Below are positions 5,517 through 60,381 of a stretch of DNA of 64,000 bases, piece by piece. The stretch lies in the NCBI GenBank assembly GCA_964036295.1, contig OZ038464.1, positions 25,896,508 through 25,960,507 on the forward strand, given 5' to 3'. Position numbers and translations under genes: made by a program. Each line of letters begins with the position of its first letter. Within the stretch, counting starts at the first letter, position 1. The notes under the pieces are model-generated. The model was not told the origin of the DNA. It saw nothing but the letters and a program-made list of their open reading frames with translations, and did no database searches. This DNA comes from Plumapathes pennacea. Lineage: Eukaryota > Cnidaria > Anthozoa > Antipatharia > Myriopathidae.

Positions 5517-6236
5517 CATACACGTATGCTCCGAACGGAAAATAAACAAGAATGCCGCTTTCCAAAAACCCACTACTGAGCGAGGGAATATCTGCGATTA
5601 CTGCAGGTAAATATATACTAGAAATACGATATGAGCCCCTGAAAACGGTTCTTCAGTCCGCCCGCCACGTTTTGTGATCAGGGAGCTTTGTGAAAGTGGC
5701 TTATTGCTGACAATGTAATTTGTCTCAAATGCTCTCCTTGGTCAGTGCGTCAACAACTGATCTGAATTGTATGTTTCTTTAATATTATGTATCTAAATAT
5801 ATTGATATTTAGTTTTTTTTTTTGCTCTCATCAACGGATTTTTTTTTTTTCTACATGCTACATAGGTCCCTATGAGTTTTCCAGGTGTGAAATACGACGG
5901 ACTTCGCCCATGGTTCTGATAGCGCAGAAGGGGGAAAATGTGACACTCAGTTGCTCTGCCATCTACCCAGATTATTGCGACGATCCAGTATGGGAACCAA
6001 ACGTAAACGGTTATCAAGAAATGTTTGCAGATGAATTTGACTGCTACCGTACGCTCATGACAAGAACAATTTACAATGTGTCTGAGGTAGATACTGGAAT
6101 GTATACTTGCAGTATAATTTGTGTGGACGAAGCTGAGACGCTCAAAACCATAAAGAATTCATCGATATCTGTCCTCCTCAAAAGCCAAAGTGAGTCGATC
6201 GTCTTTCCTCCAGTATTGGCCCATTACACGGTCTTG

Positions 6237-6267
<31 letters not shown>

Positions 6268-9200
6268 TTGCTTGTTCACTTTATGTTGGCAAATGCCGTT
6301 TTAAATCAAAGTGGATTCGTGTCACTCATACTGGGCCTAACACGTGACAACACGGATTATCGAATGTACATGTAAAAGTGCCCTCCGTATGAACTCGGGC
6401 AAAAATGCCTGAATATCTTAAAATTTGCTTAACATTAGGATTTTTGCTCTTTAGTACTTCATCTCGGTTTTTTTGTCTACTGTGTAACTGCTTATTATTT
6501 GTACTTAGTCATAAATAATATATATAGAGGATATTACACGGCGGCGCGAAGATATGAATTTTATTTTCTCGTGGTAAAAACAATACTTTACGAACGAACG
6601 CTTCGCGAGTGAGTAAAATATTTTATTATATACATACTGAGACATACTCACGAAAAAGCCATATCGTAAAATTTCGTACGCAAATGAGTTCTAGCCAATG
6701 AGAGGCCGCGAACGACGCTTTTCACACGTGAAAAAAATCGTTCGTCCAATCACAAGCTGCAAACGACGATTTTTCACTACTTTTAAAGGGTTTCCCGGTC
6801 CCATCATAAATGTCTCAGTATGTATATAATAAACAGAAAACATCATGGAAAGTGCTTTGTACAGTTTTTATTCACTCGTTGTTTCGTATCATAAAACTCA
6901 CTCGCTCGCAAAGCCTCGCTCGTTCGTTTTATGATACTTCACAACTCGTGAATAAAAACCGTACGCGCGCACTTTCCATGAAGTAATCTCTATGTTTTTA
7001 CCACGAGAAAATAAAATCCATATATTCAAGCCGCCGTGTAATTTTCTTTTTATTATATTAGATACGAGTGTTTTACGAGAAATTGCACAAACAACCGTGC
7101 AAAAGCGAGAAATGATGCCAACGATATCCTCACTAATGAGGATATGGAAAATGTACACCACTCGGGTCCCGGATGAAGTTTCGTATGGATTTTACGCACG
7201 GTATATTTTCCAGTAAAACACTCGTGTCTATATAATAGATTAAAATATGTATCTTCTTTTCATTTCAGGACCCTTTTATCGCTTGTTGGCGGGGCAGGAG
7301 ACAGTTTCAGCACTGCCAGGATCAGATGTATATTTAAAATGCGAAGTTAAATGTTTAAAGTTTCTTTTAATACATGTGCGAACGTTTTGGAGGTTCAACG
7401 GCACAACTATTAAAACCGATGACCACCGCCACGAGTTAAGTTGGCATTTTGGGTTAGACGGCAGAACGATGTTTTCCCTGAAGATACGCAATGTTAGTCC
7501 CTACGATTCAGGACTCTATAGCTGTGGCATGAATGAATCGATAACTGCTGAAACACTACTCAAGAACATATCTCTAATGGTCACTCCAGAACCCCCTCAA
7601 AGAAACGACAGCCCAGAAGGTATGCAAAATTCTGTTATTACAAGTGTTACTATTTTATAAGGCTGGGTTCGATTAAATTTTCACCGAAGTTGTTGCTTGT
7701 TCTGGGGGAACTTTTATTCGACATTGTGTTGAAAGCCCTTATTTTGAAAAGCTTCCGATCTCAATCTTAATCAGTTCTGAAGCAAAGACTGTTTTGCTGA
7801 TCAGCAGTCCTTTTCCGGGAAAGATCCAAATGAACGAGACCTAAGTGTTTGAGTTCCGAGAATTCCCCTAAGCAAAAAAGAACTGATTTCCTCAAGTAGA
7901 GACAAAAGTCAAATGTTTTCTTCGGCCTCTGGTGACAAGTTTTCGTCAAGCCCAGTCTTCCTATATATACTTTCAACGGTGAAATTTTCGCAATATAGTT
8001 AAATTGGACAGAATCCTTCTACATCAGTTTTACAGTGGATCTAACCTATGATGACTGCCGCGATAGGAAAATAAATTTGGATGACAATTAACTGACGGAG
8101 CTTACAAAGCACTATCGTAGTTGTAAACCGAGATTCCTCAACTGTTCTCAACCAGATAATCAATTTAGTACTCAAAACAGTTTATATTCAATTGCAGGAA
8201 ACGCCACACATACGATTATTTTATTGCTCATATTGCTGAGTTGTACAGGGACTGTGGGGTTTGCTGCTCTGGTGTTGTATCAAATTTTCAAACGATGGAA
8301 AGCCAGAAAAAGCTGTAAGTATTCACAACAGGTCCATTAGTCCTTTTCCAAAGTTCTGACTTACTATTGCCGAACTCAAAACAACTTAAATCAGATAACA
8401 GCTTTACCCGATAGAAGTGTGTATGTAGACTGGCTCATACTGACGACATAACGATGACAGAATCAGGACTTATGAGTTTGTTATGTTCCACTGCAAACTA
8501 CCAAACATACAAACATAAGAACATGAAAGAAAAGGAAAGTTATGGTTCACGGCCTGTCGGCAAATTGGATGCAGTCTTGAATTTGTACATGACGTCATGA
8601 AAGTTCGCGCCCGCGATTTGGCCGCGGTTGCCAGTATAATAACTATGGCAACAAATTGCTCCGCGCGAAATATAAAAAGTAAACTTTTCAACATCTTGTG
8701 TGGTGTTGTGGTTTCGATTCTTCTTGTCGTCTTTCGATGCTGCATGGTTCGGATTCACGTAGAAGAAACGCACGAACTAGTTGAACGTAAATCGAAATGG
8801 AAGGTAGAGGAAACTATTCACTGTGTTACTTTCACCACCAGAAGCAAACTGGATAAATTTATTAAGACATTGTCGTTCCATAATTACAAAATTCTAAAGT
8901 TTGCCACTAAAATTTTGCCTTTTAACAACACGACACTTCATTTTGCACCTTTTCAAACCAAAATTCTGAAAACAGAAACGATAACTTTCTTTCAAACAAG
9001 ACTTACTTTACATATCATCAATCAAAACGATGCTTTAATTTGTCTCCGTGACGCTATTTAGCGTGAAAATATCGACCGCTTTACGGCCAAATGCTCGCGC
9101 TATGACGTCATGCATAATTAACTTCGCATAATTTATTATTTAGGTCTCAGCCTTCGGCCGTGAACCATAAAAGTTGCTGTGATGCAACAGTTTCCCATAC

Positions 9201-10102
9201 AAATCTTCTTAATATTGCTGAAATTTATAATGCTGTCAAAGTCAATCTATAATGCTGTGAGCCTGAAATGTTTCAGTTCTACATACTTTTTCACGTTCTT
9301 TCTATTTCTGGCACTCAAAAAGCCTTTGGTGATGAATTCAGTCACATGGTGGATTTTGGTCATGTGACCAACCTGGTTCAAAGGGCCTATTGGTCCGATT
9401 GACTGAAAACTATGAGTAAAGATTGAAATAACGTACGCGTCAGCATGCTGTGTTGAAGCACGCGGAAGTTTATAAGAACACGCCAGAGAAGTGTGGAGAA
9501 GCACGTGACTGCATAAAGTGGTTCTACCCACGTTTCGAGTGTCCTATATCATATTAATTAATCATATTCTAGAGTAAGTGCATGATTGGTTTTAATTATT
9601 GTCAATAAATCTTCTTTCCAAAGACTCTTGGCAAATCGAAATGGAAGAGTTTAAGAGCGATGTCTTCGTGACGTACAGCAGTAAGGACTTTAAATGGGTG
9701 GACGAAGAACTAATTCCGGTTCTTGAAGAAAACCACGTGAATTACATCATTCACTGCAGAGATTTCGAGTTGGGAAAACCAATTGTCGAGAACATGGCCG
9801 AAAGCATCTACACAAGTCGTAAGATTATCGTGATACTTTCTAGAAACTACATAGCAAGTCGCTTTTGCCTGGAAGAACTGGAAATGGCTCTGCGAAGAAA
9901 CAAGGTTGGGATCGACACACCCATAGTTGCAATCCGTCTGGAGAAACTTAAGCGAAATGAAATCCCAAAAGGTTTAAGACGAATAACCTTCTTGGATTAT
10001 GCAGACAAAGAGGAAAGACAATTCTGGAAAGAAAGACTAACGAAAAAGCTGACTGCATGTCAAATGAAGGGAACACTGAATGAATTTGATACATGGATCT
10101 GA
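1032..10102 (+). CDS. IL-1R-like receptor 1: signal peptide, four Ig-like domains, TM, TIR
   Basis: Exons: 1032-1083, 2871-3143, 3528-3839, 5866-6189, 7269-7619, 8198-8314, 9624-10102; 635 aa. Every intron is phase 1, the usual phase for Ig-domain exons, and the joined frame is open. Residues 1-17 form a signal peptide (MIWVLVIFMITASSVRA). Residues 18-109 are a cysteine-rich, Ig-like first domain; 109-213 an I-set Ig (WPRPTITWFKDG, YECIATNIAG); 213-321 and 321-438 two more Ig domains (DTGMYTCS, DSGLYSCG). One helix lies near 444-468. The TIR domain spans about 485-620: box 1 DVFVTYS, box 2 RDFELGKP, box 3 FW. Many NxT/S sites suit an extracellular region. By family it is an innate immune receptor signalling through TIR-TIR contacts at the plasma membrane; the ligand is unknown. 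Introns carry several mobile elements. Exon 2 is the least certain as an Ig fold. A candidate poly(A) signal AATAAA is at 10551. Confidence 0.87.
1084..2870. other. Intron 1 of Ig-TIR gene 1
   Basis: No exon is recognisable. Near the 3' end a foldback block (about 2463-2707) has ends CACCATTCGACTCAGCAG and CTGCTGAGTTCAATGGTG in inverted orientation and two internal palindromes around GGTTTACC. The rest is AT-rich single-copy DNA with short chance frames. Confidence 0.5.
2463..2707. repeat. Small foldback element with internal palindromes
   Basis: The ends are imperfect inverted repeats of about 18 bp. Inside are near-perfect palindromes of the type AACGGTTTACC...GGTAAACCGTT, one at about 2540-2566 and one at about 2608-2632. 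No coding capacity is seen; this is a probable MITE. Confidence 0.55.
4137..4760. mobile_element. Partial copy of the large STPR-associated element (intron 3)
   Basis: The left boundary (TAATCCCCGAG...GCGAGGG, then AATAATCACGACGCTAATGC) matches the outer ends of the 45991-52509 structure, as does CTCGAAATTTAATGTTCGT a little further in. A further shared block (GTGGAAATCGAACAATCACC, about 4585) also occurs at about 47300 and, inverted, near 51780. The STPR part is absent. The right limit is approximate. Confidence 0.6.
5215..5322. repeat. Element-end fragment plus ~45-bp tandem duplication
   Basis: CTAGCGGGACCCCCGTAA at 5214 equals the terminus of the foldback element at 56884-57288. It is followed by two direct copies (about 5234-5271 and 5280-5318) of a unit containing ATCGGACCTTGTA and TATTTAGTGAC. 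The feature lies in intron 3 of Ig-TIR gene 1. Confidence 0.55.
6528..7240. mobile_element. Family A element containing two nested foldback elements
   Basis: The outer element has the ACACGGCGGC...AAGATAT ends of family A. Nested at 6629-6829 is a second element with terminal inverted repeats TATATACATACTGAGACAT / ATGTCTCAGTATGTATATA. Nested at about 6843-6983 is a third hairpin (CATGGAAAGTGC... and its complement). All of it sits in intron 4 of Ig-TIR gene 1. No transposase was seen, so these are non-autonomous. Confidence 0.75.
8537..9172. mobile_element. MITE-like element with a 154-codon open frame (intron 6)
   Basis: The ends are inverted copies of TTATGGTTCACGGCC, and a TGACGTCATG palindrome lies inside each end. 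The + strand between them is open for 154 codons (8597-9061) with one hydrophobic segment (ILCGVVVSILLVVF). I do not recognise the product; composition is AT-rich and it may be an untranslated by-product. It is not part of the receptor, whose TM exon ends at 8314 and TIR exon starts at 9624. Confidence 0.6.
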
Positions 10103-11278: not shown

Positions 11279-13334
11279 ATGGACCTTAGAACTGGGTTGT
11301 TAGTAAGACTGGTGGTGTTATCATTTTTGAGTGTGGAAGTTGCCCTCGATGCTTCTCGGCATTCATACTTCGTCATCAACAAAGGGCAAGATCTTGCCGG
11401 TCGGAAAATCAAATCTCTTGCCAGTGACGATTTAGTGTCTTGTGCATTAACTTGCAGAAGACACGAACTGTGTCAGAGCGCGTCTTACAATCACGAAACT
11501 CGGACTTGCACATTGTATAAGGACAACACCCATTCAAGTCCCTGGACACCAGAACGAGATCCAAAATATGACTTGATTGAAATGGTAAGCCGGAAACGAA
11601 AACAGTCACTGCGACATCCCTTAATATGTTTTCTGTAATTTTTTTTCTGGGGAAGAACAAATTTATAATACCACACTTCGTGGACTAGCGAATTTTCTAC
11701 ACTGTAATTCTAGGCGTTTTTATCCGTTCTAGCAATGCTGTGATACTCAGATCTTTATCAATATTGATATTTTAATGTCATGGCAGCATGATGATACCTT
11801 CTAACGTTGCAGCTGAATAACCACCTAAAACGTAATGTTGTGCCAGAATTCTAAACTCTGATTAAGAATAGCGTAGTATGTTCGTTCATTTTTGTCGGTG
11901 CCAGTCACTAGCCAAACAAATTAGTTATTCAAAGAAAAAGGTAATTTACGTGAGCTGACTTTTAACCCAGCCACAAGTCCCAAATAATTAGTAAAGCTGT
12001 AAAATCTGAATCACCCGGAGGAAGAGTGGCTAACTAATAAACACTTGTTTGTTGCTTCTCCGGCAGATCGGTGACACTGACGCAGGTATGTGTAACGCTT
12101 CAAACACTAAAGACATCTCTTCTCCCTGGTTACGCTTCCCATCCCTCCAAATCTCTTCCCGTGACGTTTGTGCCTTGTCGCGCGACTTTCTTGTCAATCC
12201 TCATTATCTTATCAGTATAGAAAATTTACGTTCATGTTAATTAGGGTATTTGAAAATTAACACGACTTAAATTAACGCGGATTAGAGGGAAAATTACTTC
12301 CTAACAAAAGAAATTAACGCGAAAAAGGAGGCTCATTCTCAGCTAAAGCGGTCGTCACTGTCTCACGACTTTAGTACCGAACGATTCTTTTTCTGGATAT
12401 CTTTTTTCAGGTTTTTACTTTCTTACGGAAGCTTTGCACTCAAGGGAGAAAATTGATGATAGTTTCCGGAGGCAAAACACCAATAATCTTGAACTATAGA
12501 CCATCAAGTCACCCAGAGTAGGCGAAAAACCCAGCTGTCTCACCAACAGCAAACTAAGGGGATTCATTTCGAAACAATAAGTTCCAAAGACCCGGCTGAC
12601 TAGTCCGGCAGTCGAATCAGCCATTTAACGTCGTCCTTCATTTATTCCTTTATAATAACCGTGCAGGTTTGTCGAGAATTACCGCAGTTAGGTCCTGCAA
12701 GGAGCTTGCTTCACTTCGTCCAAAAAGTGTTTCCGGAGTTTATTGGATAAAACCTGACAGCAACAGCGATGCGTTTCAGGCTTATTGCGATCAAACGACA
12801 GAAGGTGGAGGCTGGACTTTAGTGTGGAGTTACACTTTCACAAACTACAAAGATTTCTCCTCTCAATCAAACGCGGTTACCCCCAGCCCAAGATGGCCCC
12901 CAGTCGGCAGCTGTAGTGGTGGGTCCAGCGTTTCCACAGACGCTCCACTCAATGAAACGCAATACGACGCCATTGATTTTCGGCTTTGGAAGACTATCGG
13001 AAGACAGTTTCTGATCAAGAGTAACATAAATAATTGGTTTGTCTGCGATCCTCAGAAGGGAAGTCTTACCGAGTGGAGTTCGGGAGATGTGAGTTGCAGG
13101 AAAGTTAAAGACGTGGCCGGGCACGTTTGTACAAACGCACCGGCAGCACCGGGGTTCTTTATTGCAAATTCGTGCTTTCCAGAGTTAAGGCATAAGGCCG
13201 GGCAAGGAATTTTCTTTAACTTCATTGGCAATTTAACTGCCCTTGGATGGCCTGTAAACGATCCTTGTGGCGAATCTAAGCCAAGGTTTGTAAAAAATGT
13301 ACAGAATCCCCATGGAAATATCCTGATAAGATAA
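11279..13334 (+). CDS. Secreted PAN/apple plus fibrinogen-like domain protein
   Basis: Exons 11279-11584, 12067-12085 (a 19-nt microexon) and 12667-13334; 330 aa with the frame kept across both joins. Residues 1-24 are a signal peptide (LLVRLVVLSFLSVEVALDA). Residues about 27-102 form a PAN/apple module (LVSCALTCRRHELCQSASYN, then CTLYKD). From about residue 112 comes the start of a fibrinogen C-terminal-like domain: RSCKEL, SGVYWI, FQAYCDQTTEGGGWTLVWSY. The classical calcium-site tail is replaced by a cysteine-containing C-terminus ending HGNILIR. The same order is found in many cnidarian secreted proteins, including, as I recall, some skeletal-matrix ones. A role as an extracellular lectin-like or matrix protein is inference. 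It is tail to tail with the homeobox gene. Confidence 0.82.
12331..12546 (+). repeat. Dispersed repeat, copy in intron 2 of the PAN/fibrinogen gene
   Basis: This block (GCTCATTCTCAG ... GTGGCTGTCTCACGAC-like core ... CACCCAGAGTAGGCG) recurs in the opposite orientation at 43036-43252 with moderate divergence. No terminal repeats or coding frame are apparent. Confidence 0.7.
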
Positions 13335-38656: not shown

Positions 38657-40374
38657 TCATTTCCTTTGACTGTATAATACTAATGGTACGAATACTGAAC
38701 TTCGTTTTGGCAAATTTGGAATGCTAAACGTTTGGCTCAAACCTTCGCTGTCTCGTTCCCCAATTTGCATGGTGTCACTGCTTTTTCGAAAGTAAGACTG
38801 CACTTTGAGAGTGATAGACTGGTCATCGTTACTTAATGATGCAGGGGGGTACGTGAGAGGTATCCCGATAGTTGTGATCTTAGGAATGCTTAAATTTCGC
38901 AAATCCCGTTGTGGTTCTGAGTTCTTGGAAAGAGGAGTGCAGTAACATTGTACTGAAGGGACTGCACCGAACTCCGTGTTATGTGCTACTACATGCTCTT
39001 CATTTGTATGTTGTGTTAACTGAGATTTGAAAGCAAAGCGCTTTTCACATTTCGAGCATTTGTAGCGCTCCTTGTCCTTGTGAACGATGCGTAGATGCTT
39101 TAGCAGATTGCTTTTCTCAGTGAAGCTACCCATACATTTGTGGCACTGATAGGGCTTCTCGCCCGTGTGTACGACCATGTGTTTCACCACACTTCCCTTC
39201 TGGGTGAAGCCTTTTCCACACAGTTCACAGTGATACGGCTTTTCCGTGGAATGGGTCACTAGGTGTCTCTTCAGAACACCCTTCCTGCCAAATGATTTTC
39301 CACACTCTTGACAAGTAAAAGGCCTTGCACTGAAGTGAGCTAAATGGTGCTTCTTGAGGACGCTTGGGGATGAGAATGTCCTCTCACATACATGACACGT
39401 GGTGGACTCGTCAAGCGAAGCTATTGCGAGGCCTGACGCATGAGAGGTATTGGTACCGTAATAGCTGCGGGCATCTAGAGATCCGCCTCCATCACGGCAG
39501 TGTCCTGATACCAAGAAAAGGAGAGATTACTTGTGACATTTTTAGAAAAAGAAGTGAACGTTATGTCATCATAATGCAATCTGAGATACCGCAAATTCCC
39601 GGTTATGAGCTCCCTTCACCTCTCCTCATTCTCACCACTTCACATAAAATTAGACTTGGAGAACACTGAAACAAAACTAAGGACGGTTCATTATCGTAAT
39701 GTTTCGTGCGGACACCTTGATTGCAAAATCATGGACGTGACAGTAAGACTAGACAGGCTAACTTCGGTCTTCAGAACCTAATTTTATCCAGAGTTAAGTC
39801 CTCTTCGCTTCTGGGCCTCCTCAAAGCTAACAGATCGCAGTTATTAAATTGAGAAAACAATATACACGAACCATTGTAACATTTCTATTTATATCCAAAT
39901 ATGTCACATTCGGTACGAGTAGAGTTTTCTGAATCAAATGAAACTTTACTGGTGGACGAACAAAGGTCCACAATTCACATTGGACGTGACGCGTCAGGCG
40001 GTAGCGCGTTAAAGTTAACTTTCAGTTAAAGAAGAAACTGCTAAAAGAAACTCGATGCGATATGTAGATAAAATTTGCTTATTCAATATTTCGATTCACA
40101 CACAAAGCGGAGCGTTAGGTGACATATCGACAACTCAGAAAGACACCACAGATGAGTACAGACTGTACAATTGATTGTACTGAACAGGCAAATCATTCCA
40201 AAACGACACCTCGATGTTCAGTCAGTCACGGGGTTGCGTCGCCCCCCAAGTCGCCTGCCTAACTCGGCTTCCATTCTTAGTTCAACACAATGCACCAATA
40301 CTTGAGCAGCAACATCCACTCAATAATTATTCAGCATTCTTTATCTTACCGCTGTCGTTTATCGGCTCCGACAT
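38657..40374 (-). CDS. C2H2 zinc-finger protein, five fingers
   Basis: Minus-strand exons 40350-40374 (MSEPINDSG) and 38657-39504 joined in phase 1; 290 aa. The long open frame itself has no ATG before the fingers, and a clean acceptor at 39505-39507 joins to the short first exon, which fixes the start. Five adjacent C2H2 fingers follow: CHVCERTF, CQECGKSFGRKG, CELCGKGFTQKG, CHKCMGSFTEKS, CSKCEKRFAFKS. Linkers include the canonical HTGEKPY. The C-terminal third is non-finger, Ser/Pro-rich and unrecognised. It is probably a nuclear sequence-specific DNA-binding regulator; targets are unknown. Fingers 2-4 have the closest-to-consensus spacing. Confidence 0.87.
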
Positions 40375-43252: not shown

Positions 43253-43542
43253 TACATACAATTAAATGCAGATCGTGAAAAAACGTCGCGGCTGTTGATG
43301 TTAAAATCGCAAGATCAAGTTTTTATTGATAATCATCGCAAACTTTATTTGAATTAGTAACGTAAACAGTGCAATGTTTTATTAAAATACAATAGGTTCT
43401 AACTCAATCTGAAAACTCCCCAAAATATTACAGATAATATGCCCCACTCTAACTCTTTCTTGTATTACCTTCTACCAAAAAAATTAAAATAAAGTTTGAT
43501 CAGCAATCAACATGTCCGTTTTACCGGGTTGTCCAGGGCTTG

Positions 43543-44439
43543 TTATTGGGAGCAAAGATAAGCGATTAAATTGAAGAGTTCCGAAGTCTTCTTTATCCCT
43601 GCGAATACCATTTTCGTTCCAGGCACATATTTCTTAGGATTTTGCAGGAAAGTGTACAAATTCAACGCATTCCATACTTTACCTCTGTACCTCTTCATTC
43701 CACTGGTGTATGCATAACCAGGGCAAGTTGCAATATTTCTGTCACAAATTCCGTTTAAATTGGGTCCAATTTTGTTTGCACCCCCTTTGTCGATAGTGTG
43801 ACACTGAGCACCCCTGCGGAGGAAAACCCTCCTACCGATCTCCACATCGCCACACCCTGCAATCTCCTTAGCTGAGATAGTATTGTCATAGAACATGACG
43901 GCCTTCGCAAAATTGATTACAGAGCTACTTCCAAGACTTAGTACTGAGTTGTAGTATATTTTCCAGTACTTCGCTTGGTCAGATAAATCAGTAGGGATGG
44001 CAGCAGGTTTATTGCGATAGTAAAGTCTAGCCGCGATGCCAGAGTACAAAGGCTTGCGTAAGTCCACGTATTTGACCTTGTTCCAATCTATTCCGAACTG
44101 ATTCTGAATGAGCTGATGTGCTGCCAGTAAACCTGGGTGACTTTTCACGTCTTGAGTATCAAGAAAGACCGTTTCTTCCACTTGCCATATTCCTCCGTGA
44201 TAACCATCTCGGTAGGTTCTCGCGGCACTCCCAAACTTTGTTTCAACCAACGCCGTTCGTTCAAGAAGTTTCTTTGTTGATCCCACGGTAGACTCCACAA
44301 GCTTGACGACTTTCAGGACTATTCCTTCACCATATTTTCCAGGTGTTGTGAGTTCTTGGTCTATAAACTGTGTATGAACGGTATAACAGCATAAGGCCAC
44401 AAGAATCGCCGCTAAAATCTGCAGAGGAGCTGTAGTCAT
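43543..44439 (-). CDS. Secreted two-domain protein: lysozyme-like region fused to a cytochrome c domain
   Basis: A single-exon frame of 298 aa from the ATG at 44439; an upstream in-frame ATG at 44520 would add 27 residues, but the inner start gives a good signal peptide (APLQILAAILVALCCYTVHT). Residues about 24-190 contain ALVETKFG, YHGGIWQVEETVFLDTQ and DLRKPLYSGIAARLYY, reminiscent of lysozyme/transglycosylase-like folds (inference). Residues 197-298 are a full-length cytochrome c: GDVEIGRRVF, QCHTIDKGG, GPNLNG, NPKKYVPGTKMVFAGIKK. In domain numbering C17, H18 and the axial Met are present, but position 14 is Gly, encoded GGT, not Cys. Four extra cysteines (AGCGD, ICDRN, ATCPG, YLCSQ) suit a disulphide-bonded extracellular protein. 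Mitochondrial cytochrome c has no signal peptide, so this is not the respiratory carrier. Confidence 0.85.
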   Translation of the reverse strand: MTTAPLQILAAILVALCCYTVHTQFIDQELTTPGKYGEGIVLKVVKLVESTVGSTKKLLERTALVETKFGSAARTYRDGYHGGIWQVEETVFLDTQDVKSHPGLLAAHQLIQNQFGIDWNKVKYVDLRKPLYSGIAARLYYRNKPAAIPTDLSDQAKYWKIYYNSVLSLGSSSVINFAKAVMFYDNTISAKEIAGCGDVEIGRRVFLRRGAQCHTIDKGGANKIGPNLNGICDRNIATCPGYAYTSGMKRYRGKVWNALNLYTFLQNPKKYVPGTKMVFAGIKKTSELFNLIAYLCSQ

Positions 44440-45990
44440 GATTATTAGTGAAGCGTTGTGGCATCTCAGCTTGTAGCATTGGCAAATACAGCTGAGCCTA
44501 TGTAGACTGACAGTTGTCAATCAACGTCACGAGATCGATCAATCAACACAAGATCAGTAAATTTCCCGCAGAATAAATACATTTTTTAAAAGAAAAAATC
44601 ACAAATATTCTGGAGCTTTAAAATGAATATGACCATTTGGTTAATGAAGACTGCGAAAAATTCCTTCAATTTTTTCCAAGATTGTGTGAGCGAGCGCCAA
44701 AGTTGAAGGGTCAGGACGCGCGGAAAATGGGACGATGAGATCTGCTTGTTTTGCGTGACTGAGTAAGTCTTGCGTATTACTCAAAATGCAATAAAACTGG
44801 CAATCATGATTGTGCTAGAAGTGAGGCAGAAGTGCTGCAGATACGCGTTGGAGGATTACTCAGCAGATGCCGAAGGGAAACTGCATACTATAACGAACAC
44901 TGATCATTATGTTGCGTTCATTAGTTGTGATTACACACGGCAATATGCTTGAATCACAACTCAGACATCTTTGGAAAACCCGTTCAGCACAATGCTTCCT
45001 TGATTTTTTCCTGTGAAGAGAGCATTTCATTATTGTTTAGCCTTTTCCCGTAGTCTTTGCGTTATTTATGTAACTACAGCACATTCCACAGGCTGTACTT
45101 TGTTCTCGCGACGCGGGAAGATTGCTGAGTCGCTCATTGCGTTCGGATTGTTCGTTCGTTATTAGTATCGTAGTGACTTGTTATCTTATTGAGGGCTAAA
45201 ACGGAATTTTATCTGGAAAACACGCTCAACTAATACGCTCTTTACATCGTACAAAGTCAAACAGAAAAGGAGAAACGCGCGTTTTCCCTTTTCGAAGAAG
45301 CCCATCCCAGAATGGACGCATGAAATGTTTCGCGTTCAGTCGAAACTAAAGTTATGATTTCGTATATTGATTGAAAATTGCCAAAACGCCGGTTCGCATA
45401 CGTCAGGCCCCATGTGCTCCGGGTACACAGCCCAACAACCAACTGAATTTGAGGAAGTCTGGGGACAAATAAAACGAGGAAACCTGGGCACAAGATACAA
45501 TGCATTGATTTGGCGGCCATTTTGAAACTCGTTTGGGAGTTTGGTTTGCTGTACAAGTCCGACTTTATCGTAGAAGATTCACATAACTGAGAGGACATCC
45601 TTGAGAGAATATGGAGATGAACAGGAAACTTCTCATCGAGCGTCTAAGATGTCGTACAAGATAAACGTTTGCCCGAGGAAGCCAGAAGGTAAAAAGTAAT
45701 ATTAAGTAATTGTGAGAGTGACCCTGAAGGTCATATGGTGGGCATTTCAGTTTAAGGTATGTGAAATTAAATCACTTCACACACGGATAAAAATAATGCC
45801 GTATCGATGTTAACTGCTGAAACTCGCATCATCTTGTTTTAATTTCGGCTGCTGAAATGATTTCAGCTCGCTGTTTTGTTCCTATTTATTCAACTCTCGA
45901 TCTGCCCTACCGGTAACCAGTCTTTATACTGCTCGTGGTGTTTTACAACTTATTTCGTGTTGTCCCAGTCATCCCAGGTGTTTAGTACAT
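44440..45990. other. Intergenic
   Basis: This lies upstream of the cytochrome c fusion gene and includes its promoter. I see no convincing exon or repeat before the large inverted-repeat complex starts. Confidence 0.4.
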
Positions 45991-54438: not shown

Positions 54439-57400
54439 ATGATTTGGAGCCTTGTGATATTCATGATAGCCGCTTTTTCTGTTAGAGCTGGTAAAGTACT
54501 AACTTCTTCTCTGATTCATTTTAAAAGTGCTTGCTTTAAACTGCTCTTGTTCGTCATTTTGGTTTATCGTTTACACGGCCGTGCTATATAATCACATAGT
54601 CAGTCAAAATCTCCTTGGTCTGCCCGGGTTTGTAATTCGGTGACCGAATGTTTAGGAAGTATTTTCACCTAGTTGCCCGTTCACAATGGCGCTGTCAATG
54701 CCATGCACTGTTTACTGACAGCCGTGACCCAATCAAAGATGTATTTCTTATTATCTCTGTCTCACTGTTTTCACGATTCGTTATTAAACTCGGTCTTACA
54801 GTTTTTGAGGCAATTTTTTCGTGGCCCATGTTGTTACCTGTATCCACAGTCAATTTTTTTTTAGTTTTGGGTTAGTCCCGAATTTAGATTCATATCTTTG
54901 TTTTACTTTCAGCCAAATCACAATGATGTACCTTTCTGTCAAAACAAACATACGAAACAATTACAGCATTAAAGTCCGTTCGACAACAACGTTAAACGTG
55001 AGCTGAGCGTCTAATCATTCATTTGATTATGGGATTGGCCTCATCTTCAGAATTTAACTTTTAAATAGATATGAAGTTAAAAGTGACAGTAAAAGCTGGT
55101 AGTCTTAAAGGGGCCCCTTCAAACACAGTCCTTTGCGCGCCGAAATCCTTGGTTCCGCTATTTTTGGGGCCCCCGAAAGTCGAAAGATGAATAGCAATCG
55201 GAAAGCAATCCACTTCCATTCGACTCGTTTGAGGAGAAGATTAGTTTCTTTTGATCTAAAAGTGCTACTAACCTATTTTTCTTTTGATTAATTACGTTCT
55301 TTTTGTGTTGGGAACCAAATTCATCCTTGGGTTTTCCAGATGTAAACAAGAACATTGAAAAAGTTGAGAGGGCCCCTTTAACTTTGTGATGATTTCAGTT
55401 TTGGTTTGGGTCAGATTTATTGGCACGGAGAGCTTTCAGTAAAAAAAGGAAACAGATATAGAAAAGAGAGCGAGAGAAAATGTACCGTCGACAACTGCTC
55501 TACCTATACCACTATTTCAGGGCCCGGTTGTTCAAAGCACGGTTAGTTGTCATTTTGGGCCTAAAGTTGCAAACCTTTCGTAAACAAAACATTTTCCTAA
55601 CTAGGTTTTGCGCTATAACAAACATTTTGGTAAGTCTTTGATCAAAACTCAGCAGTTTGTTGGCCAAAATAACGAGAGGCAGAATTTCGTTAACCGTGGG
55701 TTAGCTTAACCGGACTTTAAACAACCCAGCCCAGATGTCCAAGATATGCTTTTATTGTTTGTTTGTTTGTTTTCTTTTTGAAAAGTTAAGGACTAGAAGT
55801 ATTAGCAGATCAGTAGATTCGACGCGGCGGTGCCATCTGCTGCGATTACCAATGGCTCTGCTATAGTGACGCCATATTAACGTTTGATTTATTTCCAAGG
55901 TGTGGCGTTTTCTCGAATTACTGCTAATAATCTCAGTACGACAAATTTTTATAGCTTTCGCACTGAGTCATGGACTACTAAACTTGCAGCTGTTTCTCTT
56001 TTTTTTTTTTTTCTTTTTTTCTTTTTTCTTTTTCACGACAGCATTGCTTGCGCTGAAATAAATAAAGCATATTAAATAACCAGATGAAAATTTATTGGGG
56101 AGCCGATGACCTGCATTACACAGTATTATATAGCTATCGTCGTTTGTCAGGAGTGAGCAATCATCAACAATTGATAATGACTTCCATGGACATATCGCCG
56201 ACTCCTGGTCACTCGACGTATTCATTATCTTTCCTCGTTTTCTCTCCTGCAGATCATTGTCCTCGTTCTTATTTTCTAGTTAATTCTAGTTAATTGTTTT
56301 GTTTCGTTTTGTTTTGTCCTGCACCAGCTGTTTTATTTTGTCGGTTTTGATGTCTTGCATTCAGTTTTAGAGGGTTTATAGAGGTTTTGCAAGGCAGCCA
56401 TGTTGCATGCCAGGAACAATGAATTTTTTGCACAGCAGTAGCTCTTTTTTCCCAGAGGAACTAAATTCTGTTGTTCCCGGCATGCAACATGGCTGCCGTA
56501 CAAAACCGCTACTAGCCAGTTATTCATCGAAAAATATATACCCTCTTGCAGATGTGCTTACAGATGACATCACCTGCAAAATCATACACTTGTCTTCTTC
56601 TCCCTTCAACAAGTTACGTTGTGATATCTCTGGGGATGTTCCTCCTGATGCAGTCAAATCTCTTACCTGGTCATGGGACTCATGGGATACGAGCTATGTT
56701 GAAAAGAAAACGTGCAATGTGACCAGTTCTATGCCATTGGATTTCTGCCAATCACTTCTTTTTAATACAAGTGTTAGTCAAGTCAACTGCACTATTTCTG
56801 CTACCGACAGCCGAATAAAGTGTGGAGTCAATTGTGGTAAGGCACAGTTGATCTTTAACTGTCGCTCAACTTAACTGTAAGCTACTAGCGGGACCCCCGT
56901 AAAATACGGGTGGCATCCCCTTTTTACCCTTTTGAAATGAACAGTGGCATGAGAGGCCATATTTATATTTTCTTTTGCTCCCTTTTGGCCGCCATATTGG
57001 ATGCTTTTATGAGGGAGCTGGGGAAAGAGCGTAACACACACGTTGGAAAAGATATTTTGTGCTGCCTAGCCGTTATTATGAGGCAAGTCAATCAACCACA
57101 GAAAGCCTGGTGAAAGTTAGAAATTGTTGTGACGTTTTACAGGGACGAACAAACTCACTCATTCAACAGTTATTGGGATAGAATAATTTGTTTCCGTAGC
57201 CAAGTCCAAAATAAAGCCACTGTCTGCTAGTTCTTATCAAATCGCAAACCAGGGAAAACCTAACCGTTTTTTGCGGGGTCCCGCTAGTCCCCGATCCCTG
57301 CGAGGGTAATACTCAGAGTGTTTTTCTCTCTACCCAGTTTCTCCAACCGTGGTAATAAACAATACGCATACTATACAGAAATGGTACGGAGGCAGAAGAC

Positions 57401-60381
57401 GTGTATTACGTTGCATAGCTCGTGGATGGCCGAGGCCAACAACTACTTGGTTTAAAGATGGAAAACAAATCAAGGGCGATACCGTACTCAATAGGATGCG
57501 TGTCATAACCCAGAAAACAGTGAACAAAAACAAGCGAATAGTTGACCTCGAATTTCTGAATATAACCAGCATACACATAGGCAGGTACGATTGCATAGCC
57601 ACCAACATCGCTGGGAAGACTGCAAGAAGTCTTGGGATACATGTGGGCTGTAAGTATCTCATTTCTCTACATGCCACCTCTCCCCGCCACACACCCCCAA
57701 CATCCCCCCCCCCCCCCCCCCCCACCTCCTCCCCCAAAAAAGTTGACTGCAACAAATGAATAAATATAGTCAGAGGTCTAGTTGTTTCAAAATAATATGT
57801 TCGATTGATACCAAACATTTGAGGCGTTATTGCGTAATCAGTGAAGTCACAGATCTAGTATTTTATACATTAATATTCCTCAGTATTTAGCCAATTGGAA
57901 TGCTCTCGTTGATGCTCTCGTTGATCAAGGCGTTAAAACTTGATCCAATTTAGAATGTTTCTTTTTTCACCTAAATACCTATGCTGTGCTATAATGTAAA
58001 ACCTATTGCTCTCAGTAAACTAATTTTGTTCTGATACATAGGTCCCTCTCCACGCAAGTGTGAAATACGACGGACTTCGCCCATGGTTCTGGTAGTGAAT
58101 AAGGGGAAAAACGTGACACTAAAATGTTCTGGCCGGGAACCCGCATTTACCCCGACTCTTGCAGAGTGGATACCAAATATACTTGTTTCCCGACATAGGT
58201 CTCAAGATGAACTCAGATGCTTCAGCAGAAGCATTACAGGAATAATTTACAATGTGTCTGATGCTGATACTGGAATATATACATGCAGCGCCCACTGTTC
58301 GACGTTAGAAACCAAGAATTCGTCAATGTATGTTCTTCTCAACAGCCAAAGTGAGTTGAATTTTTGTCCTTGAAACTTATACACTATAACAAGAAATTAT
58401 CATTACTCTCTGTGTTTATTACGGACCCAACTTGATTTTTAACTGGACAAAAAGAGACTTACTTACAGACGAATGTACGAAACTATAATGTCAGTTAACA
58501 TTTATTTTGCTTGCAGGGCCATTTTACCGCTTGTTGGTGGGGCAGGAGACAATTTCAGCGCTGCCAGGATCAGATGTATATTTAAAATGCGAAGTTAGGT
58601 CTTTTGAGTTCCTGTTAAAATTTGTGCGAACATTTTGGAGGTTTAACGGCACAACTATCATAAAGGCCGACCAACGCTACGAGACAAGTTGGCATTTGAA
58701 GTCAAACGATACAATTATACTTTCCCTGAAGATACGCAATGTTGGTCACTACGATGCAGGACTTTACACCTGTGGAATGAATGAATCGATAAGTGCTGAA
58801 ACATTACTCAAGAACATATCTCTGCTGGTCACTCTGGAACCTCATATCAACAACAACCCAAAAGGTACAGTGAACAACTCGTTTGCAATTTAAGTTTAAT
58901 CGCTTAAAAACACTGTTTTGGGAGACTTGCTCCTAAATGAGAAAGAGTGCCTGCATGTGGATTAAAACATCAATGCCATGACGCGGCAGTGTAAACTGCT
59001 AAGAGTTAAACAAATCCAGAGACAAGAACTGAAGAAGAACGACTCATTCAACGATATAGTACACTGTGCGCTTACATCTCTGTTGTGGTAGCGTATATTA
59101 TGTGAAAACAATTTTGAAGTAGTTTTAAATCGCAATTGGCTGGGCGCACAAAGCGTCAAAATAATTGAAATCAGACACAGCGGAGCTTCCCTTAAGGGGA
59201 CACCCTCAGGAGAAGGAAACGTGTCCCCCAGGTGTCCCTTGAATGGAGGTAATCAATAGAAGGATTATATGAGCGTTTTTTTTTTTCGGAAGAAGGAGAG
59301 GTGTCCCCTTAGGTGCCCCAAAGTAAAGGTTCCACTGTAATCTTTCCTAATTTGCAGCGAATGACACCTTTTCCAGTATGGAGCCGAGCATTTTAATTCT
59401 TATATTGGTTGGCTGTACTGTAATGGTTGGGTTTGCTGCGCTGGTATCGTATCAAAGTTACAAAAAGTGGACCTCGCCAGCCAGAAAAAACTGTAAGTAC
59501 TGAATACTGTAAGTTTACTGTAGTTGAGAGGACACTTTAACCGAACATTGGCGGTCAAGCAAGGCTAAGGTTAAAAGAGTGTAAAGAAAAGTATGACCGA
59601 CCCTATTTGGTTGATTTAGTTTGGTTAATTGGCGTTTAAGTGATATAGATAAAATAGGAGCGGCCAATCTTTATGGGCATTTACAATGGCGAGCTGCTTG
59701 TGAAATGAAGGAATGACATGTACACCTGTACAGATCTTTATGAAAAGTTATGCATACTAATCAGTACGGCAACAAATATTTATAAAAGTTAGAATACTGA
59801 TAAATAACTCATCAGACTTTTATTGGCATTTACAAAGTGTGCATGTGACTCAAATTCTGAGCTCGTATTGGTTTGCACACTTATGCATTATTAATGAATT
59901 TTACGATATTCTTTCCAAAGATTCAGGCGGAACCGAAATGAAAGAGTTTAAGAGCGATGTCTTCGTGACGTACAGCGGTAAGGACTTTGAATGGGTGGAC
60001 AAAGAACTAATTCCGGTTCTCGAAGAAAACCATGTTAATTACATCATTCACTGCAGAGATTTCGAGTTGGGAAAACCAATTGTCGAGAACATGGCGGACA
60101 GCATCTACACAAGCCGTAAGATTATCGTGATACTTTCTAGAAACTACATAGCAAGTCGCTTTTGCCTGGAAGAACTGGGAATGGCTCTGCAAAGAAACAA
60201 GGTTGGGAGCGACACACCCATAGTTGCAATCCAGCTGGAGAAACTTAAACGAAGTGAAATCCCAAAAGATTTAAGGCAACTAACCTTCTTGGACTATGCA
60301 GACAAAGAAGAAAGACAATTCTGGAAAAAAAGACTGATGAGAGAAATCTGTGCCGTTGAATGGAACAAACTAAGGCCTTAA
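54439..60381 (+). CDS. IL-1R-like receptor 2: signal peptide, four Ig-like domains, TM, TIR
   Basis: Exons 54439-54490, 56552-56836, 57338-57649, 58042-58350, 58517-58864, 59358-59492 and 59921-60381; all phase-1 introns, 633 aa. The exon order and most lengths copy gene 1. It has a signal peptide (MIWSLVIFMIAAFSVRA), a first domain with LTWSW and paired cysteines, an I-set Ig (WPRPTTTWFKDG, YDCIATNIAG), two further Igs (DTGIYTCS, DAGLYTCG), a TM exon (ILILILVGCTVMVGFAALV) and a TIR (DVFVTYS, RDFELGKP, FW). By hand count the TIR differs from gene 1 at about 14 of 134 residues, while exon 3 differs at about 45 of 104. Exon 2 is four codons longer and the TM exon six codons longer. By family it is a plasma-membrane innate immune receptor, ligand unknown. 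A separate function from gene 1 is inferred from the diverged ectodomain. Confidence 0.88.
55107..55380. repeat. MITE with AAAGGGGCCC ends (intron 1, Ig-TIR gene 2)
   Basis: TTAAAGGGGCCCCTTC at the left and GAGGGCCCCTTTAA at the right form inverted ends about 270 bp apart. There is no coding content. Confidence 0.65.
55520..55733. repeat. MITE with GGGCCCGGTTGTTCAAAG ends (intron 1, Ig-TIR gene 2)
   Basis: The left end pairs with CTTTAAACAACCCAGCCC at the right; inside, GGTTAG.T and its complement recur. It resembles the smaller element at 48574-48690 at the ends only. Confidence 0.65.
56393..56507. repeat. Small foldback element just before exon 2 of Ig-TIR gene 2
   Basis: GCCATGTTGCATGCCAGGAACAA is mirrored by TTGTTCCCGGCATGCAACATGG across about 40 bp. 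The right arm ends about 45 bp before the exon-2 acceptor, so it replaces most of the local intron sequence seen in gene 1. No coding role. Confidence 0.7.
56884..57288. repeat. Foldback element with ACTAGCGGGACCCC ends (intron 2, Ig-TIR gene 2)
   Basis: ACTAGCGGGACCCCCG starts it and CGGGGTCCCGCTAGT ends it, about 405 bp. Just beyond, CCCCGATCCCTGCGAGGGTAAT resembles the outer edge of the 45991-52509 complex. A fragment of the same end sits at 5214 in gene 1. Confidence 0.8.
57700..57723. repeat. Poly-C tract
   Basis: A homopolymer run of about 20 C in a C-rich stretch directly after exon 3 of Ig-TIR gene 2; length in the assembly may be unreliable. Confidence 0.8.

Follow-up and report, generated by a model that had tools for sequence, protein, structure and literature searches.

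The genome of the antipatharian Plumapathes pennacea contains a gene in which a signal-peptide-like segment, a lysozyme-like domain of the phage endolysin type and a full-length cytochrome c domain are joined in one open reading frame, and in which the cytochrome has lost the first of its two haem cysteines. The gene lies on the minus strand at 43543..44439 of the window, by which we mean the whole 64,000-nucleotide stretch of DNA that was analysed, and it has two paralogues of the same layout elsewhere in the assembly, one of which has lost both haem cysteines. The explanation that we prefer, tentatively and with less than full conviction, is that these genes are expressed as exported bacteriolytic proteins whose cytochrome module would hold haem mainly without thioether bonds.

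The coding region of the gene in the window (C3) consists of 298 codons and a stop, running from an ATG at 44439 to a stop codon that ends at 43543, and aligns end to end with both paralogues; the plus strand of the same interval has 11 stops. An earlier note on this DNA had described a signal-like N-terminus, a middle domain and a full cytochrome c in one exon; both that description and its coordinates hold, the single exon for the coding region only, where there is one open frame of 298 amino acids. Residues 1-23 (44371..44439, minus strand, as for all features of C3 given below) form the putative signal peptide, with a hydrophobic 11-mer starting at residue 8 (mean Kyte-Doolittle value 3.18) and no Lys or Arg in residues 1-25. 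N-termini that are signal-like, as judged from hydrophobicity and charge only, are found in all three fused genes and set them apart from mitochondrial cytochrome c, which has no secretory signal; that of C3, being hydrophobic and uncharged, is also unlike a mitochondrial-type presequence. We infer that the C3 product enters the secretory pathway. About 85 nt 5' of the ATG (44440..44524) can be aligned with the paralogue C5a and are probably 5' UTR, and a possible polyadenylation signal AATAAA (43378..43383), a pattern match only, lies 160 nt 3' of the stop. Within the 5' flank a 21-base run, picked by eye, has a single difference from C5a and C5b, which in C3 creates an upstream out-of-frame ATG.

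The fused gene is flanked by two Ig/TIR receptor-like gene copies, one near each end of the window (5787-10102 and 57349-60381, both on the plus strand), in which Ig-type domains are followed by a TIR domain (TIR_2, E 1e-20 and 1.3e-19). The window also holds an ORF with a fibrinogen-like N-terminal part (12669-13334, plus strand; Fibrinogen_C E 1.2e-6, COLFI E 1.2e-6), which by eye is intelectin- or ficolin-like, and a C2H2 zinc-finger ORF (38657-39514, minus strand) about 4 kb from the fused gene.

A six-frame search of the 290 Mb, 24-contig assembly identified the two further fused genes, C5a (L024 4518-5366) and C5b, which have the same layout as C3 and are 57% identical to it over residues 2-297. 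A chance open reading frame or an assembly artefact is ruled out by these two paralogues, and so is the join between unrelated sequences that the earlier note had named as its possible undoing, the order of the parts being the same over nearly the whole length. Each paralogue is one intronless open frame; they lie 18.8 kb apart on a contig other than that of C3, within a local duplication that is 92% identical over 1.7 kb and has further pieces at 95% and 99%. One such piece of 1.04 kb, 3' of C5a (L024 8861-9901) and of C5b (L025 6161-7202), is 99% identical as against 92% for the genes, which may be the trace of a recent event, either a mobile insertion or a conversion. The nucleotide alignment of C3 with C5a falls into two pieces, extending from 85 nt 5' of the ATG to 4 nt 3' of the stop, with nothing detectable beyond. 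The linker between the two domains (residues 166-196, 43852..43944) is poorly conserved among the three genes; that of C5a contains a compensated frameshift relative to C5b, with the frame restored before the cytochrome domain and cysteines added, and the linker is free to vary.

Both parts of the fusion also occur separately in the same assembly. Three stand-alone genes encode a signal-like N-terminus and the middle domain with no cytochrome; all are on contig C1, where two of them, about 10 kb apart, each have one phase-0 GT-AG intron after GGIWQ, and the third, more distant in sequence, is intronless. The sole canonical cytochrome c gene found in the assembly, on contig C11, has the motif CSQCH and three coding introns. 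The Pfam model Cytochrom_C gave at least five matches over the assembly, a lower bound since scoring was exon by exon and for the best candidates only: the three fused genes, exon 1 of the C11 gene (below the cut-off) and a match at C3:2398711 that was rejected as a gene, being a nonsense reading with four stops. Four introns found in the separate parts (three cytochrome, one lysozyme-like) are thus missing from the fused genes. This loss fits the retrogene, or processed copy, origin suggested earlier for at least part of the gene, with the caveat that one stand-alone gene is intronless too. A poly-A remnant or target-site duplication is unlikely to have survived given the age of the genes (dS about 0.6, C3 versus C5). 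Bacterial contamination is ruled out because GT-AG introns interrupt related genes of the same assembly; in addition, none of the 16 phage and 654 plasmid records with a match covers 80% of the protein. The best phage match has 45% coverage and 36% identity, the plasmid matches across both domains are of low identity (the two examined fall in or near cytochrome c genes or in unannotated DNA), and a whole-protein pattern scan of viral contigs gave seven pattern matches and no relative.

The middle domain of C3, as matched over residues 41-165 (43945..44319), belongs to the phage protein family phrog_3108 (E 7.9e-13), which is listed as being of unknown function. When 12 members were aligned, six from this genome and six from phages, 11 matched phrog_3108 individually, and one Glu, one Gly, one Arg and one Trp were invariant in all 12; the Glu, residue 66 of C3 (44242..44244; E43 of the domain), is a candidate catalytic acid. 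The phage proteins stop after the domain, whereas the animal-type genes also encode a putative signal peptide and, in three cases out of six, cytochrome c. For none of the 12 members did a Pfam or NCBIfam match improve on E 0.03, nor did a search of PDB chains with the family profile give anything below E 0.6; matches to oestrogen receptor, Transposase_32 and SpoIIE were set aside as chance-level. The domain therefore differs from the g-, c- and i-type animal lysozymes, with which it would share a presumed muramidase role, in matching no curated family model.

The function of phrog_3108 is suggested by the company that its genes keep. In Pseudomonas phage PSA28 it has the small terminase gene on one side and on the other a holin (phrog_785), which is followed by an Rz-like spanin (phrog_89; L002 3902-5210), and in the closely similar phage S6a it adjoins an annotated holin. 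Its neighbours in phiKO2, L027, L028 and L031 are small proteins with no lysis annotation; in Shewanella phage 1/44 a baseplate gene and one for a tail chaperone are close by, and in B8b it is beside genes of unknown function. As a side observation, phiKO2 Gp60 (L003 6271-6633) is recorded as holin-like, although the PHROG families that it matches best are HNH endonucleases (E 8e-42). Judged from a single clear lysis cassette, that of PSA28, and its counterpart in S6a, phrog_3108 is likely to be an endolysin family, which would cleave peptidoglycan, and family and phage gene context together lend support to the earlier description of the middle region as lysozyme-like. A scan of GTDB with two short peptide patterns gave 87 pattern matches, among which there was one relative, a gene of a deltaproteobacterial MAG (L066, 810-1394) that is 35% identical, has a signal-like N-terminus and shares 66 of 153 aligned residues with the stand-alone gene C1b. 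It groups with the phage sequences in a small tree at a support of just 0.144, so that any transfer may have run in either direction.

The cytochrome c domain occupies residues 197-298 (43546..43851), and over residues 197-295 its best PDB matches are other cytochromes c (E 1e-32). Matches to 4dy9 (E 2.7e-25) and 2yk3 (E 1.4e-25), which we take to be kinetoplastid proteins, are also present, and the Pfam Cytochrom_C model barely passes its cut-off (21.6 bits against 21.3). The domain has one residue inserted relative to canonical cytochrome c; identity to the canonical C11 protein is 50/101 for C3, 59/102 for C5a and 56/102 for C5b (50-59%). The codons CGC AGG GGT GCT CAG TGT CAC encode RRGAQCH, so that in the C3 haem motif GAQCH (residues 210-214, 43798..43812) Cys14 is replaced by Gly while Cys17 and His18 are kept. 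The motif is AAQCH in C5a and AAQSH in C5b, in which Cys17 is replaced by Ser and there is no haem cysteine at all; the CXXCH of c-type cytochromes is thus absent from all three fused genes, and the arrangement with the first cysteine lost and the second kept is seen in C3 and C5a and not in C5b. Both axial ligands, His18 and Met80 (Met277 in C3, 43609..43611), are retained in all three, as the earlier note had read from C3 and as the codons and alignment confirm, and so are Pro30, Leu32, Arg38, Tyr48, Thr49, Trp59, Leu68, Thr78, Lys79, Phe82 and Leu98.

There are 15 positions at which three canonical sequences agree and all three fused genes lack the canonical residue. They include Cys14 (Gly, Ala, Ala), L35I, F36C, F46Y, Y67F (Phe264 in C3, 43648..43650) and Asn52 (Met, Leu, Leu; Met248 in C3, 43696..43698). 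That these positions have changed in all three genes, several of them to the same residue, indicates a single fusion event. All three fused genes encode Cys at position 99, where both canonical sequences that reach it have Lys. The four added cysteines noted earlier are all present in C3 (196, 232, 239 and 296), but the three genes have in common only the pair at cytochrome positions 36 and 99, which may perhaps form a disulphide; the mature proteins have five, eight and four cysteines in C3, C5a and C5b, respectively.

The main rival to non-covalently held haem, which we regard as possible though somewhat doubtful, is that the domain carries no haem and serves as a cationic module for membrane binding. 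Disulphides and newly acquired hydrophobic residues would stabilise it, and it would tether the exported lysozyme-like domain to anionic bacterial membranes, much in the way that cytochrome c associates with cardiolipin. The net charge of the domain is +11, +8 and +8 in the three fused genes, although the canonical C11 protein is equally cationic (+11) and the charge may be mere inheritance. Lys72, Lys73 and Lys87 are kept in all three genes and Lys86 in two, and these four lysines belong to the A-site of cardiolipin binding (PMC7193304); Asn52, however, the residue proposed to hydrogen-bond cardiolipin at the C-site, has been lost. The loss of both haem cysteines from C5b and the hydrophobic residue at position 52 in all three genes are in keeping with a haem-free module, whereas the axial ligands, both retained, and a haem crevice preserved in good part argue for a haem site. 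Apocytochrome c is described as generally unfolded, folding on the accepted view only once the thioether bonds form, with exceptions (PMC3884852); if the scaffold is indeed conserved, this favours the presence of haem, and it disfavours an easy non-covalent binding.

Selection on the two domains was compared using omega. In the middle domain it is 0.33 for C3/C5a (p=2.9e-5), 0.38 for C3/C5b (p=4.8e-4) and 0.74 for C5a/C5b (p=0.56), and between two stand-alone genes on C1 it is 0.10. The corresponding values for the whole cytochrome domain, 0.60 (p=0.10), 0.70 (p=0.25) and 0.75 (p=0.53), are none of them significantly below 1. When the domain was divided according to conservation in three canonical sequences, a split made after the whole-domain test had failed and giving comparisons that are not independent and p values that are uncorrected, 71 scaffold sites had omega of 0.35 (p=0.0035), 0.44 (p=0.021) and 0.39 (p=0.093), and 25 variable sites 1.9 (p=0.11), 2.7 (p=0.024) and 2.0 (p=0.18). 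Canonical scaffold positions are thus under purifying selection, and the scaffold is apparently being maintained amid rapid change at other positions; diversifying selection at the canonical-variable positions is possible, omega exceeding 1 with p=0.024 in one of the three comparisons.

For 29 residues that we assume to make up the haem pocket, omega is lower than in the rest of the domain for C3/C5a (0.31 versus 0.79, p=0.007) and C3/C5b (0.41 versus 0.92, p=0.015), the difference for C5a/C5b not being significant (p 0.2). Compared with other scaffold sites, the full list gives no significant difference (p 0.14-0.21) and a stricter list one in a single comparison of three (p 0.36, 0.18 and 0.039). 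Canonical residues are retained at 16 of 23 pocket sites and 22 of 50 others (p=0.037), or at 16 of 25 and 22 of 48 when Cys14 and Cys17 are counted (p=0.11). Because the pocket signal weakens against other scaffold sites, we claim selection on the scaffold and not on the pocket alone.

These values bear on the view that the cytochrome domain is a passenger, acquired through an accidental fusion and now in slow decay, with the work left to the lysozyme-like domain. The higher omega of the whole cytochrome domain relative to the middle domain, the omega of about 0.75 in both domains of C5a/C5b and the compensated frameshift in the C5a linker are all in its favour. We nevertheless consider it improbable: the scaffold omega is 0.35-0.44 in the two deeper comparisons, and the frame is open to the last helix in all three genes, whereas a simple neutral simulation left the domain without a stop in 31% of runs at 0.1 substitutions per site, 7% at 0.3, 4% at 0.45 and 2% at 0.6.

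Least probable is covalent attachment of haem through Cys17 alone in the copies that keep it, as in Euglenozoa, by a haem lyase acting on a mitochondrial fraction of the product or by a slow spontaneous reaction, since C5b has AAQSH, the N-terminus is not of the mitochondrial type and we know of no haem lyase in the secretory pathway. What speaks for it is the resemblance of GAQCH and AAQCH to the euglenozoan motif AAQCH (PMC8262978), the maturation by yeast HCCS of AXXCH and not of CXXAH (PMC4158909) and the count of five cysteines in mature C3, an odd number that leaves one free. As a mechanism for the whole family, the Euglena-like single thioether raised in the earlier note fails because C5b has neither haem cysteine. 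In animals, HCCS attaches haem to cytochrome c at the mitochondrial inner membrane, on the intermembrane-space side (PMC3884852, PMC8262978), and because the haem lyase is mitochondrial, haem bound non-covalently, or no haem, would be likelier than a Euglena-like link, and any haem would be held mainly without thioether bonds.

Precedents for parts of such a protein exist. Tyr67 and Asn52 are members of a hydrogen-bond network at Met80, replacement of Tyr67 by Phe is stabilising (Tm 90 °C, against above 80 °C for the wild type), and Phe67 is the natural exception named for Euglena c-558 (PMC4161393); the same replacement lowers the potential, to 208 from 235 mV (PMC12248545). The fused genes share with the euglenozoan single-thioether cytochromes the loss of the first haem cysteine and the presence of Phe67 (PMC8262978, PMC4161393), although the euglenozoan proteins are mitochondrial, not exported, and keep the second cysteine, which C5b lacks. 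That C5a has exactly the euglenozoan AAQCH together with Phe67 is a double coincidence, and one that may be adaptive. A variant of Hydrogenobacter cytochrome c552 with AXXAH, a class I fold without haem cysteines, folds around haem as a b-type cytochrome with stability below that of the wild type (PMC4451467); it is a laboratory product derived from a thermophilic bacterium, whereas the fused genes are natural and their haem binding is predicted. Cytochrome 579 was discarded as a precedent lacking CXXCH, since it does carry the motif. Compared with the animal mitochondrial protein, whose full length they preserve along with His18, Met80 and a good part of the haem crevice, the fused genes have one or no haem cysteine, replacements of Asn52 and Tyr67, a signal-like N-terminus, a position behind another domain and no introns. 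Among the literature matches listed there was no cytochrome c-lysozyme fusion and no exported animal cytochrome c without CXXCH.

The preferred explanation, in which haem is held mainly without thioether bonds, would run as follows. A processed copy of mitochondrial cytochrome c would have been joined in frame, once, behind the coding sequence of a secreted lysozyme-like protein, and the resulting fusion is now present in three intronless copies. The product would enter the secretory pathway with its N-terminal domain acting as a peptidoglycan hydrolase of the phage endolysin type, and its cytochrome domain would meet no haem lyase there. In an exported copy the haem cysteines would no longer be useful, and an unoccupied CXXC pair might become oxidised to a disulphide in the ER; the first cysteine would have been lost in all copies and both in one, while the His18/Met80 site was kept. 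Judged from the genetic code, Cys14 to Gly to Ala and then Cys17 to Ser could have been single-base steps. The changes at Asn52 and Tyr67, positions of the water network of the haem crevice, perhaps with a 36-99 disulphide, would favour non-covalent holding of the haem, which would be b-type, with one thioether at Cys17 conceivable in C3 and C5a. The protein would then likely be an enzyme exported for antibacterial action or for digestion, with a haem module that captures haem or provides peroxidase chemistry at the bacterial surface.

The points in favour of this explanation are the paralogues, their shared changed positions, the kept ligands, the scaffold omega, the precedents of Y67F/Phe67, AAQCH and c552, and the PSA28 lysis cassette; against it are the non-significant whole-domain omega, a pocket that is not clearly more constrained, the view that folding depends on thioether bonds, and a c552 precedent that is thermophilic and less stable. 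In its fullest form, which we hold more tentatively still, the family would be a natural b-type cytochrome of cytochrome c fold in the secretory pathway, freed from the haem lyase and arriving independently at the Euglena arrangement of Phe67 and a lost first cysteine, with one copy then left without any haem cysteine, serving as the haem-capturing or peroxidase module of a phage-type lysozyme.

With or without haem, the partner domain suggests action on bacteria, in defence or digestion, and an endolysin-type hydrolase function is suggested for a phage family whose function is listed as unknown. If the preferred explanation is true, a natural family with one and with zero haem cysteines and an intact His/Met site, beyond the reach of the haem lyase, would offer a direct test of the purpose of the thioether bonds, and cytochrome c would have been recruited into an exported, probably antibacterial, protein.
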